Shown in pieces: positions 6,052-15,796 of a stretch of 64,000 nt of DNA. Position numbers and translations under genes: made by a program. Below the pieces are notes generated by a model, which saw only the letters and a program-made list of their open reading frames with translations, was not told where the DNA came from and searched no databases. The stretch is from Deltaproteobacteria bacterium (lineage in GTDB: Bacteria; Desulfobacterota; Binatia; UBA9968). Within the stretch, counting starts at the first letter, position 1. Every line of letters starts with the position of its first letter. The stretch covers positions 1-64,000 of the forward strand of contig SHYW01000009.1 in the NCBI GenBank assembly GCA_009692615.1. Reading direction: 5' to 3'.

Positions 6052-6468
6052 ATGAAGCTTGGAGCATTTATTTTCGCCGCCGTCTTGACGATCGCGCTAC
6101 CGTTTGGCGCCGCGGCTCAGCACGAACATAGCGATCACGCGGCACCCGCCGCAAAAACCACCACGGATAAGACAACCCCACCAGCGCTCAAACCCGCCGA
6201 GGGCGCCAGCATAAAAATCCTCGTCCCAACTAAGGGGCAAAGCATCAAGGGCGACAAGGTGGAAATTCACTACAAACTCGTCAAAGGCAAACGCGGCCAC
6301 CACGCCCACGCTTACATCGACGGCGAAATGATGGGCATGTTCGAAAGCGCCAAAGGCACGCTCAACGGCGTCAAACCCGGAAAACATGTCTTGGAGCTGC
6401 GTGTCGTCGCCAACGATCACACAACCGAACTGGATGCCCGCGACAAAGTCGAGTTCACCGTCAAGTAA
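6052..6468 (+). CDS. Small exported His-rich protein
   Basis: A 138-residue exported protein. It has a signal peptide ending at AAA and a mature N-terminus rich in His (QHEHSDHA), then a low-complexity Ala/Thr/Pro stretch and a compact beta-rich domain (about residues 48-138) with a HHAHAY segment. The domain resembles Ig-like or DUF4399-like periplasmic modules, without a firm assignment. The histidine clusters suggest metal binding, most plausibly copper given the SCO and Cox11-like genes downstream. GGGAG precedes the ATG at good spacing. Confidence 0.75.
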   Translation: MKLGAFIFAAVLTIALPFGAAAQHEHSDHAAPAAKTTTDKTTPPALKPAEGASIKILVPTKGQSIKGDKVEIHYKLVKGKRGHHAHAYIDGEMMGMFESAKGTLNGVKPGKHVLELRVVANDHTTELDARDKVEFTVK

Positions 6469-8339: not shown

Positions 8340-8891
8340 ATGAAATCGGTAAACGTAAGAATGAGCTTAACCGTAGCCTTGCTCTGGCTGCTGGCGACTG
8401 CGTTAACCACATCGACCGCCAGCGCACAGCATGTTCATCCAGCGAATCCGGGCACAGCGCCAACCGTCGGCGCCGCGGCAGTCCCTTTCGAACTGAAATC
8501 GATGGAAGGAAAAACGCTCACGTTAGAAACTTTTCATGGCAAACCGCTGGTGTTAATTTTTTTCGCCAGTTGGTGCGATCCCTACCGCGATGAAATGCCG
8601 CTCATCAACGAGCTGGCATCACAAGGAAGCAAAGAAGGTTTCAGCGTGCTCGGCGTCGCCGTCGAAGATACCCGCGCCGCGGTGAGCGAATTCGCTAAGG
8701 AAGCGAAACTAATTTTTCCGATCGCCCTGGACCTGAACAGCACCGTCAAACGAGCCTATCGTATCTTCGGTCCACCAGCGACTTTTTTCATCGACGGGCA
8801 AGGCATCGTTCGCGACATCGTCCTCGGCCCGGCGACAACGGAACGGGCGCGCAAGGCGTTAAAGAAAACTGGCTTGGTCGGCAAACAATGA
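8340..8891 (+). CDS. TlpA/ResA-like periplasmic thioredoxin with a CxxY active site
   Basis: A 183-residue exported thioredoxin-fold protein (signal peptide ending ASA, mature start QHVHP). The fold signatures are intact: FFASWC, EMPLINEL, the cis-Pro region GPPATFFID (Pro146) and the extra TlpA-type strand. The active site reads WCDPYR: Cys79 is kept but the second cysteine is Tyr82 (codon TAC, one transition from TGC). It therefore cannot cycle as a dithiol; it could act as a monothiol, a metal-binding or scaffold protein, or be losing function. It overlaps the next gene by 4 nt and probably overlapped the ancestral end of the propeller gene, so it belongs to the same operon. Confidence 0.88.
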   Translation: MKSVNVRMSLTVALLWLLATALTTSTASAQHVHPANPGTAPTVGAAAVPFELKSMEGKTLTLETFHGKPLVLIFFASWCDPYRDEMPLINELASQGSKEGFSVLGVAVEDTRAAVSEFAKEAKLIFPIALDLNSTVKRAYRIFGPPATFFIDGQGIVRDIVLGPATTERARKALKKTGLVGKQ

Positions 8892-9784
8892 TCGCGTCGT
8901 CGTTAAAACCCTGGAGATCCATCGCGCTACTTTTATTGGCGCTGCTATTAACTAGCGTCAAGCTCAGCGCGGCGGAACTGAAGCAATCTCCCAGCGATCC
9001 TGAGCAAGTTTTGCAAACTTACCTGCGCGCCACCTACGCGCGCGATTTCATCGAAGCCTACCTCTTTATTTCGAGCGCCGACCGCAAAGCGCGCGATCTC
9101 AACCGTTATCTCCAACAGCGCGGCCCCTTCGCCGGCTTTACTTTGGAGGTGGCGAAAAAGCTCAGCGAGTCAATGGAAATCTATTTCAAACAGCGCAGAG
9201 ACACGCCGACGCGCATCCAGACGGTTATCAACTACAAAGTTCCCGACCCGAATAAGATTTCAGCCCTGCTGCTCAATTGGGACGCCTACCGGTTGAACTC
9301 TTTAGCGCCAGCGGAGCGCAAACAAATTCTCGACGCCATCGACAAGAAAAAACACGGCGGCTCGCTCGACATGAGCGAAGGCGAAGAAAACTTCGAGTTG
9401 GTCAAAGAAGCCGACGGTTGGCGGATTTTTTTGAATTGGGCCGCTGGAGTCAAAATCCCGTTGCGCGTCGATCTATCGCAGGCAACCGATCTCGATGTCA
9501 GCTTGTCAAAGACCGACATCGTCGCGCAGCCGGGGGAGATCTTTGAAGTCGTTCCGAAAATCACCAACCGGACTAACCAACCTGTCACCGCGCGCATCGT
9601 CCACGTGGTCGAGCCCGACGCCAGCGCCGATTTCTTGGACTTCGTCCAGTGTGGCTTTCTTTTGCCGGTGACGATTGCGCCGGCCAAGCAACAGGAATTT
9701 TCCGGTACCTACCTATTGCGCGGCACGCTGCCCGAAGGTGTGCGCCAACTCAAGCTCACTTACGACTTTCGCCTACTAAAGTAA
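8888..9784 (+). CDS. Exported NTF2-like protein with a Cox11/CtaG-like C-terminal domain (copy 1)
   Basis: A 298-residue exported protein with no exact family that I know. After a signal peptide (about 1-29), residues 35-185 look like an NTF2/DUF4878-type cone domain (YLRATYARDFIEAYLFIS at its start, GWRIFLNW at its end). Residues 200-295 resemble Cox11/CtaG, the copper chaperone for the CuB site: PGEIFEVV, then NRTNQPVTARIVHVVEP, then DFLDFVQCGF, then a final LKLTYDF strand, in the same order as Cox11's GE, N-S-PV, V-P-YF-KIQCFCF and ITLSYTF blocks. Only the first cysteine of the CFCF motif is kept (Cys255). It is paralogous to the gene at 10445. Copper handling is an inference from this resemblance and the SCO neighbours. 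Confidence 0.75.
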   Translation: MIASSLKPWRSIALLLLALLLTSVKLSAAELKQSPSDPEQVLQTYLRATYARDFIEAYLFISSADRKARDLNRYLQQRGPFAGFTLEVAKKLSESMEIYFKQRRDTPTRIQTVINYKVPDPNKISALLLNWDAYRLNSLAPAERKQILDAIDKKKHGGSLDMSEGEENFELVKEADGWRIFLNWAAGVKIPLRVDLSQATDLDVSLSKTDIVAQPGEIFEVVPKITNRTNQPVTARIVHVVEPDASADFLDFVQCGFLLPVTIAPAKQQEFSGTYLLRGTLPEGVRQLKLTYDFRLLK

Positions 9785-9849
9785 TCGGCGCGGCCGACGT
9801 GGGGAATCTAGCAGTGCGTGGCAATTTGTGTTTAATTTGCTGCCATCGA

Positions 9850-10416
9850 ATGGCTCACTCAATGAATCGAAAAATCTCACCGCTGATATTCCTACTTGGC
9901 GCGCTGGTTTATTTAATTGCGGCCGCCACGGCGCTGGCGCAGGACTCGCCTTTTGAGCACAAAAAAATCGTTCCCTTCGTGCCCTCGCCGCCGCAAGTGG
10001 TCGAGAAAATGCTCGACATGGGTGGAATTAAATCCGGCGACCTGGTGTACGACCTCGGCTCGGGTGACGGCCGCATCGTCATCGCCGCCGCGCAAAGAGG
10101 CGCTCAAGCCATCGGGTTTGAAATCGACGGCGATCTGATCAAAGACTCCCGGGCGAATATTCAAAAAGCCGGGGTTCAAGCGCGCGCTGAAATTCGCAAC
10201 CAGGATCTACTCACCGTGGACTTCTCGGCCGCCACCGTGGTGACGATGTATTTGTTCCCGGAGGTCAATCTGCAACTCAGGCCCAAGCTGCTCGCCCAAC
10301 TCAAACCCGGCGCACGAGTCGTTTCCCATGCTTTCGACATGGGCGATTGGCCGCCCGACAAGCACGAACAAGTTCTCGGCCGTAACATTTATGTTTGGAC
10401 CATCCGGGCGAAGTAA
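9850..10416 (+). CDS. Class I SAM-dependent methyltransferase with a signal peptide
   Basis: A 188-residue protein. An N-terminal hydrophobic segment ends in a good cleavage site (ALA before QDSPF), and the rest is a compact Rossmann methyltransferase: PFVPSPPQVVEKML, then the SAM-binding motif YDLGSGDGRIVI, then IGFEIDGDLI and an acidic-loop motif (NQDLLTVDF). I set the start at the ATG at 9850; a second ATG lies at 9862, and the longer upstream frame lacks coding character. It lies between the two Cox11-like paralogues on the same strand. Exported proteins of this family occur in related bacteria, but SAM is not known in the periplasm, so the domain may face the cytoplasm behind an uncleaved anchor. 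Substrate unknown. Confidence 0.85.
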   Translation: MAHSMNRKISPLIFLLGALVYLIAAATALAQDSPFEHKKIVPFVPSPPQVVEKMLDMGGIKSGDLVYDLGSGDGRIVIAAAQRGAQAIGFEIDGDLIKDSRANIQKAGVQARAEIRNQDLLTVDFSAATVVTMYLFPEVNLQLRPKLLAQLKPGARVVSHAFDMGDWPPDKHEQVLGRNIYVWTIRAK

Positions 10417-10444
10417 TCTTGCCACGTGACGAATTCTATTATCT

Positions 10445-11326
10445 ATGATGAAAAAATTTCTTCTCCCGCTCTGCGCCGGTTTACTGCTGGCGTTGCCGGC
10501 GCTCGCTTGGTTAGTCAACAGCGATGCGAGCCCGCGCCAAGAACCGGTACAAGCGCTGAGCCAATATCTGCGATTTCTCTACGCCCGGGATTTTCGCCAA
10601 GCCTACCGTTTCATTTCCGCCGACGACCAAGGATTAAAAAATGTCAACGACTATGTCCGCGAACGGGGATCGTTCAGCGGCTTCACGTTGGCGCTGGCGG
10701 CCAGGCTCGCCGGTTTGATCGAAGTCAATCAGCTCGCCAGCGTCGCCGAGGGACCGCGCCAGCGCGTCACCGTCGCCATGAAACTGCCGGACGCCAACAG
10801 CATCGCGCCGCTATTGCACGACTGGGATGACAAAAAATTGAATGCTCTATCCGCGCCGGCACGCAGAAACCTGCTGTCGACCATCGATAAAATGATCGGC
10901 GCCGGCAAACTACCGATGATCGAAGGCGAAGAAAAATTCGTCCTGAGCAAAGAAGGCTCCAAGTGGAAAGTCTTTCTCGACTGGGCCGCCGGCGTCCAAG
11001 TACAGTTCAGCGCCACCGTGCCGGGCAACGCAATCAGCGCCACGGCGCTCAGCAAAAGCACAGTAGCGCGCTCCGGCGATCTATTTACCGTCGGTTTCAA
11101 AGTGGTCAACCGGTCAGCCAAGGAGATCGTCACACGCATCGCGCACCGGGTCGAGCCGCAAGAGTTCGCGCAATATTTGGATCTCGTCGAGTGCGCGCTT
11201 TTGCTGCCGGTGCGGATTCAGCCCGGCGAGGAGCAGATTTATCGCAGTACCTACTCGGTCCGCGGCGATTTACCCGATGGCACTAAACTGCTCAACGTCA
11301 CCTATGAATTCAAGATCGAAAATTAA
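10445..11326 (+). CDS. Exported NTF2-like protein with a Cox11/CtaG-like C-terminal domain (copy 2)
   Basis: A 293-residue paralogue of the protein at 8888, with the same two-domain plan: signal peptide or anchor (1-25), NTF2-like region (about 35-185; YLRFLYARDFRQAYRFIS, then WKVFLDWAAGV) and a Cox11-like region (about 200-293; GDLFTVGFKVVNRS, HRVEPQEFAQYLDLVEC, then LNVTYEF). The single conserved cysteine is Cys250, again at the first Cys position of Cox11's copper motif. The two copies are clearly diverged, so the duplication is old. Its 3' end overlaps the SCO gene start by 23 nt, tying it to copper-chaperone expression. Confidence 0.75.
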   Translation: MMKKFLLPLCAGLLLALPALAWLVNSDASPRQEPVQALSQYLRFLYARDFRQAYRFISADDQGLKNVNDYVRERGSFSGFTLALAARLAGLIEVNQLASVAEGPRQRVTVAMKLPDANSIAPLLHDWDDKKLNALSAPARRNLLSTIDKMIGAGKLPMIEGEEKFVLSKEGSKWKVFLDWAAGVQVQFSATVPGNAISATALSKSTVARSGDLFTVGFKVVNRSAKEIVTRIAHRVEPQEFAQYLDLVECALLLPVRIQPGEEQIYRSTYSVRGDLPDGTKLLNVTYEFKIEN

Positions 11327-11921
11327 CTTCTGGCTCATAGCTTGTTTTGGCATCGGTCTGATCACCTCCTACGCCCAGGCGCATATCCCGATTCCGCCGA
11401 AACAACCGAGTGAAATCGGCCGCCGTCTGGTCAAGAGCGTCGTCGCCGATTTCAAATTGATCGATCAGAATGGCAATCCGTTTCAGATGGCAACGAGCCG
11501 CGGCAAGGTCGTTTTAGTCAATTTCATCTTCACCACCTGCCCCGATGTTTGTCCGCTGCTGAGCGCCAAAGTCGCCGCCATCCAACGCGCTTTGGATGAG
11601 AAGAAAATTAAGAACTATTGGCTGCTCAGCATCACCACCGATCCGGAACGCGACAGCGCAGCCGTCATGAAAGATTACGCCGGACGCTTCAAAGCCGATC
11701 TGAACCACTGGTCGTTCCTAACCGGCGCGCGCGCAGATTTGGTAAAGGTTTGGAAAGCGTTCGGCGTCAACGTTACCAAACCCGATTCCGGACAAGTTTT
11801 TCACACTGCGCTGACCACGCTCATCGACCGTCAAGGGCTGCGCCGAGTCGACTACTACGGCGACAAATGGCTCGAGCCCGAAGTGCTCAAGGATTTTCAG
11901 TGGCTCAGCGCGCAAAAGTAA
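11304..11921 (+). CDS. SCO1/SenC-type copper chaperone (second copy)
   Basis: A 205-residue SCO-family protein. A signal peptide ends near AQA, and the CPDVC motif (Cys79, Cys83) and His167 (VFHTAL) are the copper ligands. I chose the ATG at 11304 because the signal peptide begins there; it overlaps the Cox11-like gene by 23 nt. It is the only member of this run with an assured copper-chaperone family and is the main reason to read the 6-12.5 kb cluster as copper-related. The downstream gene starts inside its 3' end. Confidence 0.92.
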   Translation: MNSRSKINFWLIACFGIGLITSYAQAHIPIPPKQPSEIGRRLVKSVVADFKLIDQNGNPFQMATSRGKVVLVNFIFTTCPDVCPLLSAKVAAIQRALDEKKIKNYWLLSITTDPERDSAAVMKDYAGRFKADLNHWSFLTGARADLVKVWKAFGVNVTKPDSGQVFHTALTTLIDRQGLRRVDYYGDKWLEPEVLKDFQWLSAQK

Positions 11922-12472
11922 TCAGCGGTGCGCTGACCTTTGCCATCGGCGTTTTGCTTTTCATTGCGAGCAGCTTGGCCGCACAGAACAAGTCCGGCGT
12001 ATTGGAAATCCACATCAAAGATCACCGCGACGCCATCGGCGACTTCGCTAAACTAAACATCGTCATCGATAAATTTTCACTCAGTCCAAAAGCCGGGCTC
12101 AAGTTCTGGCAAACCGGCTGGCGCGACCTCCCGGCCAATCCCGACACCGTCGATCTGACCCAATACATCGGAATAAACCGCGCGCGAGTCTATCGCGGCC
12201 CCATCGAAGCCGGCAGCTTCGAAGGCTTTCACCTCAAGATCAAACGGATAGATGGGATTCTCAATAAAGATCAGCGCCGCGCCGCGATCAAAAACCGGAT
12301 CGGCACCGTAAAACTACCCTTTGAAGTCCGCCCCGACGGCGAAACCCTACTGATCATCGATCTGACGGTAGGCGATTTCACCGACCACCCGCCGCGCGGT
12401 TACGAGCTCAGCTTGCAAGGCTATGAAGTTTTTACCAATGGAAAACTAACGGCAAGAATCCCGCCGGGTTAA
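11900..12472 (+). CDS. Exported DUF4382-like protein
   Basis: A 190-residue exported protein starting at a GTG at 11900 with AAGGA 6 nt upstream, inside the end of the SCO gene (22 nt overlap). A signal peptide ends at SLAA; the body is a beta-rich domain (GVLEIHIKDHRDAIGDFAKL, then a VDLTQYIG segment and a GSFEGFHLKIKRIDGIL segment) that matches the layout of DUF4382, a domain of unknown function found in exported proteins of many environmental bacteria. It is the last gene of the exported run; the next gene is convergent. Confidence 0.8.
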   Translation: MAQRAKVISGALTFAIGVLLFIASSLAAQNKSGVLEIHIKDHRDAIGDFAKLNIVIDKFSLSPKAGLKFWQTGWRDLPANPDTVDLTQYIGINRARVYRGPIEAGSFEGFHLKIKRIDGILNKDQRRAAIKNRIGTVKLPFEVRPDGETLLIIDLTVGDFTDHPPRGYELSLQGYEVFTNGKLTARIPPG

Positions 12473-14263: not shown

Positions 14264-14917
14264 ATGAACGGCTCAAAAAATCAATTTATAATTCTCGGCG
14301 GCGTAGTCATCTGTTTGGCTATCGGCTTGGGCACGGCGCTGTGGCTGAGACTCGGGCCCTACCCGCAGCTCGCCGGCATGAAAAACAGCAGCGCCAGCGA
14401 TGACGGGTTGAAACAGTACGGCGCGGTGCCGGATTTCCATTTAACCGAACGCAACGGCGACGCCGTCACGCTCGCTCACCTGCGCGGGCGAATTTGGATC
14501 GCTGATTTTATTTACACCAGCTGCACCGACACCTGTCCGCTCCAAACCGCGATGATGGCGCGGCTCCAAGAAGAATACGCCGGCAAGCCCAACTTCCAGT
14601 TGGTCTCAGTCACCGTCGAACCCGAGCGCGATACACCCCAAGCGCTGTCGGCGTACGCGGCGAAGCATAACGCCGATGCCAAGCGCTGGTTCTTTTTGAC
14701 CGGCCAGCGCGATCGTATTATCAGCTTGATTCATGACGGCTTTCATCTGAGCGTTGCACCGCTGCCCGGCAGCGGCGAAGAGAGCGGCATGATCGCCCAC
14801 AGCCCGCGCTTCGTGTTGATCGATGGCAATGGGCAAATTCGCGGCTACTACGACAGCCGCGAACTGACAGCTTTCGTCCGGCTCAAAAACGATGTGGACA
14901 CCCTTTTGAAAGGATAA
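14264..14917 (+). CDS. SCO1/SenC-type protein (third copy), membrane-anchored
   Basis: A 217-residue SCO-family protein with an N-terminal transmembrane helix (about residues 8-29) rather than a cleaved signal. The ligand motif is CTDTC (Cys87, Cys91) and the distal His is His179 in IAHSPRF, followed by VLIDGNGQIRGYY. It differs from the two CPDVC copies and sits 3 nt before the VKOR-thioredoxin gene, so in this operon it is more likely to act in thiol redox than in strict copper delivery, though both remain possible. Confidence 0.92.
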   Translation: MNGSKNQFIILGGVVICLAIGLGTALWLRLGPYPQLAGMKNSSASDDGLKQYGAVPDFHLTERNGDAVTLAHLRGRIWIADFIYTSCTDTCPLQTAMMARLQEEYAGKPNFQLVSVTVEPERDTPQALSAYAAKHNADAKRWFFLTGQRDRIISLIHDGFHLSVAPLPGSGEESGMIAHSPRFVLIDGNGQIRGYYDSRELTAFVRLKNDVDTLLKG

Positions 14918-14920
14918 GCG

Positions 14921-15796
14921 ATGGCGAGCGACAATAAAAATCCCAAAGGGAAACAACCGGCGGCTAAAATGTTTCTGCGCGACGGCCCCAATTGGCCACT
15001 ATTTGTTCTTGCCGTCCTCGGTGTCGCGTTGTCCGGGTATCTTACCTTCACCGCCTGGCAAGGACGACTGGTCGCCTTCTGCAGCGCCGGTGCCGGCTGC
15101 GATTTGGTGCTCAACAGCCGTTGGTCGACGCTGTTCGGCATGCCAACTTCGTTCTGGGGATTGCTTACCTACGCGCTGCTCGCCGCCGTGGCTTGGAACC
15201 GTTACGCCGACAGCCAATGGCGATGGGCCTGGTTCATATCGCTGTTCGGCGTACTCTTCAGCGTCTACTTAACTTCAATTTCGTTTCTCGAACTCAAAGC
15301 CGCCTGCCCTTATTGTCTGACCTCGCTCGGATTGATGACGGCGATTTTTCTCCTGACGAATTTTCAACGGCCGGAGAATTTGCCCAAGTTTGCTTGGGGA
15401 CCATGGCTCGGCAAAACCGTCAGCGTCGCCGCCGCGGTGATCGTCGCGTTGCATTTATATTTTGCCGGCTATTGGGGCTCAGCCCCCGGCCCGGAAGATC
15501 CTTGGGTCAGAGGGCTGGCCGATCATTTGACTAAGGCCGGGGCTAAATTCTACAGCGCCTCTTGGTGTCCGCACTGCCAAGAACAGAAGAAAAAATTTGG
15601 CGCCTCGGTCAAACGCATTCCATATATCGAATGCAGCCCCGGCGGGCCCCAAGCGCCCCAAGCGAAAGAGTGCAAAGACAAGAACATCGAGAGTTATCCG
15701 ACCTGGATCATCGACGGCCAGCGGCGCACCGGAATTCTGGAACTGGACACCCTGGCGCAGATTACCAAATTCGACTACCAGGAAGGCAAACCCTAA
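14921..15796 (+). CDS. VKOR-type quinone-linked thiol oxidase fused to a thioredoxin-like domain
   Basis: A 291-residue inner-membrane protein. Residues 25-180 are the vitamin K epoxide reductase fold with its periplasmic cysteine pair (Cys54, Cys60) and the active site CPYC (Cys129, Cys132). A C-terminal periplasmic thioredoxin-like domain carries SWCPHC (Cys216, Cys219). Bacterial VKOR replaces DsbB: it passes electrons from the fused or separate DsbA-like partner to quinone and so drives disulfide formation. The gene lies between an SCO protein and a rhodanese, 3 nt and -1 nt away, in one periplasmic redox operon. Confidence 0.94.
   Translation: MASDNKNPKGKQPAAKMFLRDGPNWPLFVLAVLGVALSGYLTFTAWQGRLVAFCSAGAGCDLVLNSRWSTLFGMPTSFWGLLTYALLAAVAWNRYADSQWRWAWFISLFGVLFSVYLTSISFLELKAACPYCLTSLGLMTAIFLLTNFQRPENLPKFAWGPWLGKTVSVAAAVIVALHLYFAGYWGSAPGPEDPWVRGLADHLTKAGAKFYSASWCPHCQEQKKKFGASVKRIPYIECSPGGPQAPQAKECKDKNIESYPTWIIDGQRRTGILELDTLAQITKFDYQEGKP

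Follow-up and report, generated by a model that had tools for sequence, protein, structure and literature searches.

Paired NTF2-like/Cox11-like fusion proteins of Binatia with a single cysteine at the first copper-ligand position of Cox11

The stretch of DNA analysed here (hereafter the window) comprises positions 1 to 64,000 of contig SHYW01000009.1 from an uncultured deltaproteobacterium of the Binatia, and it contains two forward-strand genes whose products join an NTF2-like domain to a domain resembling the copper chaperone Cox11. Protein A (8888..9784) has 298 amino acids, with a signal-peptide-like N-terminus (LSA-AE, by eye), an NTF2-like domain and a Cox11-like domain at residues 187-294 (9446-9769). 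Protein B (10445..11326) has 293 amino acids, with an N-terminal hydrophobic helix, an NTF2-like domain at residues 28-180 and a Cox11-like domain at residues 178-293. Both reading frames lie at the coordinates given in the initial annotation, and the two proteins are paralogues with a common plan, as it had described them. They are 37% identical. In each, a hydrophobic N-terminal segment leads into some 150 residues without a convincing match to any Pfam family, and the C-terminal domain matches PF04442. A looks like a secreted protein and the hydrophobic helix of B is probably a membrane anchor, which supports the location proposed previously. A has a syntenic ortholog, 76.6% identical, at another locus (L047). 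The pattern is not due to chance: about 40 homologous sequences in about 29 genomes carry it.

Several comparisons identify the C-terminal domain. The match to PF04442 (CtaG_Cox11) lies above the curated cut-off of 25 bits in both A (26.8 bits, E 6e-6) and B (33.2 bits, E 6.5e-8). Scores against the NCBIfam equivalog NF003465 reach 30-33 bits, far under its cut-off of 162 bits. A single-sequence phmmer search of the PDB gave nothing relevant, and the Cox11 match came only with a profile: 18 aligned sequences of the family to which A and B belong (the NTF2-Cox11 family) found Sinorhizobium meliloti Cox11 (1SO9/1SP0) at E 1.4e-20, with the family cysteine opposite the first cysteine of the CFCF motif. 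An AlphaFold2 model of B, computed from the same 18-sequence alignment, has a predicted local distance difference test score (pLDDT) of 85.9, and Foldseek ranked apoCox11 (1SO9) first among PDB structures (E 1.8e-5; TM 0.68 by target length). A second structural aligner matched residues 178-293 of B to 1SO9 with a Z of 10.7 and a root-mean-square deviation (rmsd) of 2.8 over 114 residues. The Cox11 immunoglobulin-like fold, which had been predicted for this region from ordered sequence blocks, is thus the top structural match of the model, and the different fold that would have refuted the prediction was not obtained.

In addition to the immunoglobulin-like domain and the anchored or secreted position, A and B share with Cox11/CtaG the blocks GE...N...P...C...PG...TY in the same order and the first cysteine of CFCF. 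Alignment to canonical Cox11 places Cys255 of A (9650..9652), the only cysteine of that protein, and Cys250 of B (11192..11194) at this first position, as the initial annotation had them; B has one further cysteine, Cys10, within its N-terminal hydrophobic segment. The second position is occupied by Phe in A (C-G-F-L) and by Leu in B (C-A-L-L), so that both proteins lack the CxC copper motif (CFCF). The family differs from Cox11/CtaG in further respects: the NTF2-like domain added N-terminal of the Cox11 domain; an invariant His, 16 residues N-terminal of Cys255 in A (His239, 9602..9604; His234 of B, 11144..11146), which is present in 43 of 43 family members and in none of seven canonical Cox11 proteins; the lack of the Lys three residues before the first cysteine (canonical Cox11 7/7, family 0/43); and the lack of a conserved membrane-proximal third cysteine, A having none and B only Cys10.

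The loss of the second cysteine can be placed on a tree of the Cox11 domain, which was constructed with the CFCF columns omitted and rooted on the seven canonical proteins (taken from plasmid records, in which most adjoin cox genes). All 43 family members group together (support 100/98), and all 31 single-cysteine members, including A and B, form one clade (100/99), the stem of which measures 1.2 substitutions per site; the 12 CFCx sequences do not form a supported group (89/21). The second cysteine is absent from all 31 members of the clade, and CFC is kept in 11 of the 12 sister sequences. Over the 15.2 substitutions per site accumulated in the single-cysteine clade, Cys250, His234, Phe214, Asn222, Pro238 and Tyr287 are unchanged; the median column has changed nine times and the former second-cysteine column seven times. 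The initial annotation had staked its interpretation on conservation of the retained cysteine among homologues, and it turns out to be invariant. Nearly all sampled relatives within the taxonomic family of this bacterium have kept one copper cysteine of Cox11 and lost the other, so that this lineage seems to have remodelled a copper chaperone.

For the N-terminal region, the second aligner matched residues 28-180 of the B model to the CaMKII hub, ketosteroid isomerase and the MecA N-terminal domain, with Z values of 8.4-8.6 and rmsd values of 3.6-4.5. A Z near 8 is moderate, and we take these matches as support rather than proof of the NTF2 fold that the initial annotation had suggested. The likeness to the NTF2-like superfamily is one of fold. 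By sequence, the N-terminal part has no convincing match in Pfam, and a match to NF051431 (Rv0361_Cterm) under its cut-off is weak and confined to the CFCF relatives. Elsewhere in the phylum, other genomes encode lipoprotein-like proteins with a related NTF2-like N-terminal domain (L104-L107). Three of these (L104-L106) have a different C-terminal part attached to it, and the domain may therefore be a mobile module.

Matches to B were found in 27 of 145 relatives searched, and named records from a similar search belong to Binatia, deltaproteobacterial metagenome-assembled genomes and Candidatus Entotheonella; a record labelled Syntrophobacter seems to be identical with the contig of one of these genomes (G004). 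Among 395 genomes of the phylum scanned with the family profile, the window's genome alone showed the full architecture, the other matches covering the N-terminal domain only and several being at chance level. Genomes of family f1 have one to three copies each, nearly all of the single-cysteine type, the exception being G019 with CFCF. Those of family f3, two Entotheonella chromosomes and G529 (drawn as an Entotheonella relative) have one copy each with CFCF or CFCY. In f3, G019, Entotheonella and G529, the CFCF or CFCY fusion protein is the sole PF04442 match found. In one f3 member (L040:7335-8807) the motif reads CFFF, the second cysteine having been lost independently.

The f3 and G529 copies have a further C-terminal extension after the Cox11 part. 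In f3 it is homologous (40-43% identity) to a separate gene in the window, 11906-12472, of the DUF4382 type, and that of G529 resembles it by eye; both in G529 and at the f3 loci, a SCO gene lies immediately downstream of the NTF2-Cox11 gene. The simplest history, whose order of events we infer, would make NTF2-Cox11-DUF4382 followed by SCO the old arrangement, from which in f1 the DUF4382 part split off as its own gene while the Cox11 part was duplicated and lost its second cysteine.

The window genes around A and B whose coordinates are given here lie on the forward strand except where stated. A is preceded by a gene for a TlpA/AhpC-like thioredoxin-fold protein (8340..8891; PF00578, E 9e-25), the stop of which overlaps the start of A by 4 bases; a similar gene is a neighbour in L057, L058, L062 and L063. 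The window protein reads WCDPYR where those four have WCDPCR, the second cysteine of CxxC having been lost. Between A and B lies a class I S-adenosylmethionine-dependent methyltransferase with a signal-peptide-like N-terminus (9850..10416; PF13847/PF13649 over cut-off). S-adenosylmethionine is not expected in the periplasm, and similar methyltransferases neighbour about ten further loci of the single-cysteine type. The end of B is overlapped by a SCO1/SenC gene with a CPDVCP motif (11277..11921, likely start 11304; PF02630, E 7e-29), the SCO neighbour that the initial annotation had named. There follows the DUF4382-like beta protein (11906..12472, the bounds of the translated stretch; PF14321, E 9e-7); its AlphaFold2 model (pLDDT 90) has no structural match in the PDB at E <= 0.001 and offers no functional lead. 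Judging from this spacing, with the TlpA-like gene overlapping A and the SCO gene overlapping B, 8340-12472 probably forms one operon.

A small exported protein (6052..6468) with invariant His84, His86, Met96 and His123 in alignment is a candidate copper-binding domain, and a similar domain comes after CopD in relatives (CopD fusions in L060 and L058). Downstream are a second SCO of the cluster, with a CTDTCP motif (14264..14917; PF02630, E 1e-27), the ortholog of which follows the CFCF-type NTF2-Cox11 gene at f3 loci, and a protein with an N-terminal VKOR domain and, close to its other end, a thioredoxin-like motif, WCPHC, read from the sequence (14921..15796; PF07884, E 2e-26; syntenic in f1 and f3). 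SCO-family genes number three in the first 15 kb: 229-828 on the reverse strand, 11277-11921 and 14264-14917. The window also has a TonB-dependent receptor and TonB; neither CopC nor CopD was seen in the part of it that was examined.

This setting recurs. A SCO gene lies in the cluster at 21 of the 27 Binatia loci of the NTF2-Cox11 family, along with repeated occurrences of VKOR, rhodanese-like, DUF4382 and methyltransferase genes and of a small protein like 6052-6468; by Pfam, CopD is present at four of the loci examined and CopC at two of those four. Family genes thus sit with CopCD, SCO and VKOR, in contrast to those of Cox11/CtaG inside the cox operon, and the neighbours (SCO, CopC/CopD, VKOR and the His/Met-rich protein) are indicative of a role in handling copper. 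A comparable set is known from Bacillus subtilis, in which the copper oxidases are supported by YcnJ (CopC-CopD-YtkA) and Sco (PMC13344008): as there, where Caa3_CtaG completes the set, CopC-CopD of the relatives is followed by a small domain and accompanied by SCO and an oxidase assembly factor. However, the small domain (6052-6468) gives no YtkA match in Pfam, and the assembly factor in Binatia is Cox11-like, not the membrane protein Caa3_CtaG.

A and B are the only PF04442 proteins found in the window's genome, which is 98.7% complete. The sole COX1 (haem-copper oxidase subunit I) found there belongs to an aa3-type operon with COX2 (ELCGFGHSGM), CtaA, CtaB and COX3, and this operon contains no Cox11 gene; nor was Caa3_CtaG found in genus g1 (G000-G004). 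A and B are therefore the only Cox11/CtaG-type candidates in the genome for supplying CuB, although absences from draft genomes are weak evidence. A copper monooxygenase was considered as another target and rejected: its B subunit (PF04744) is absent from all family-bearing genomes tested, including that of the window, and the one match came from a genome without the NTF2-Cox11 family. Since, in addition, an aa3-like COX1 is present in most of the closest CFCF-bearing relatives, the ordinary aa3 oxidase is the default target, and the earlier suggestion of another copper enzyme or oxidase type finds no support in these data.

We put at about even the chance that A and B are Cox11-derived periplasmic copper(I) carriers that supply membrane copper sites, most likely CuB of the aa3 oxidase. 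What we infer of copper binding, dimerisation, ligands and target is as follows. The single cysteine of each subunit, at the site of the first copper cysteine of Cox11, would bind Cu(I), perhaps with the assistance of the invariant, family-specific His. The NTF2-like fold commonly dimerises, and the domain may hold two subunits together, copper being bound between their two single cysteines in place of the four-cysteine cluster of Cox11; a Cys-His copper site would be an alternative. Together with SCO and the other neighbouring proteins, A and B would then deliver copper to sites in the membrane. Canonical Cox11 is a dimer with a Cu2S4 cluster (PMC9145763, PMC6696091). A and B, each with one of the two CFCF cysteines, cannot build such a cluster, and a single copper held by the two cysteines of a dimer or by Cys and His is the natural alternative.

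Several points weigh against this proposal. Human COX11 is non-functional when either cysteine of CFCF is changed (PMC9232578), and three cysteines and one lysine are reported to be essential in yeast Cox11 (PMC9172173); the single-cysteine clade has no second cysteine, and the whole family has neither the Lys nor a conserved third cysteine. The genes for A and B are not adjacent to cox genes. Four f1 relatives (G006, G009, G010 and G016) have COX1 and COX2 and no family member that we could find, several of these assemblies being incomplete or fragmented. Conversely, G005 has three family members, no COX2 was found in it, and the only COX1 found is divergent.

Relatives that have an oxidase and manage without these genes also fit a broader role, in which A and B would serve periplasmic copper uptake or resistance in general, as deliverers or buffers of the metal, and would have no particular tie to cytochrome oxidase. 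CopC/CopD, the His/Met-rich protein and, in the window, the TonB-dependent receptor and TonB belong to the same clusters, which lie apart from the cox operon. Yet SCO genes, of which a cluster often has two, typically go with oxidase assembly, and most CFCF-type f3 genomes pair one aa3-like COX1 with one Cox11, so that we regard the broader role as rather unlikely, though a serious rival. SCO also figures in an explanation by thiol chemistry instead of metal, in which A and B would form mixed disulphides with, or be reduced by, SCO, TlpA or VKOR, as adaptors keeping copper-site cysteines reduced. One cysteine per subunit, unable to form the canonical Cu2S4 cluster, and the persistence of thiol-disulphide proteins as neighbours (TlpA-like, VKOR with WCPHC and rhodanese-like) agree with it. 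Against it, CFCF sisters within the same protein family indicate a copper lineage, CopC and CopD are copper proteins, and the invariant His suits a metal site and is not needed for thiol exchange; we consider it unlikely, though it too is a serious rival. That the single-cysteine proteins are scaffolds binding no metal, their cysteine being structural or accidental, would agree with the absence of two Cox11 features reported as essential, the second cysteine and the Lys. This is very improbable: a lone cysteine cannot make an internal disulphide, and Cys250, in practice the sole cysteine of the mature proteins, has stayed the same in all 31 sequences through 15.2 substitutions per site.

Apart from the role of A and B themselves, we tentatively propose, with more doubt than confidence, that the 31-member clade represents a novel class of copper(I) carriers, in which the Cox11 fold has abandoned Cu2S4 and holds one copper through one cysteine per subunit, with His or across an NTF2-held dimer, and of which the target may not be CuB. 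It has been asked why Cox11 binds two copper ions yet delivers one (PMC6696091), and a natural clade that keeps one cysteine, with CFCF sisters for comparison, provides a way to test this.

We found no description of an NTF2-Cox11 fusion in the open-licence literature, so that an earlier notice elsewhere is possible, and nothing relevant on DUF4382. The Cox11 domain is thus seen here in two fusions that we did not find described, NTF2-Cox11 and NTF2-Cox11-DUF4382, and DUF4382 becomes a candidate for a partner role in the assembly of copper sites. According to a 2022 review, Cox11_CtaG is restricted to alpha-, beta- and gamma-Proteobacteria and eukaryotes (PMC9145763); the occurrence of the NTF2-Cox11 family in Binatia and Entotheonella extends the range of Cox11-like proteins past those lineages. 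Another genome that was drawn as a relative of Entotheonella (G538, locus L158) has a short canonical CFCF Cox11 beside CtaB-like and COX3-like genes (named by eye), and Cox11 outside the reviewed lineages may therefore not be confined to the NTF2-Cox11 family.

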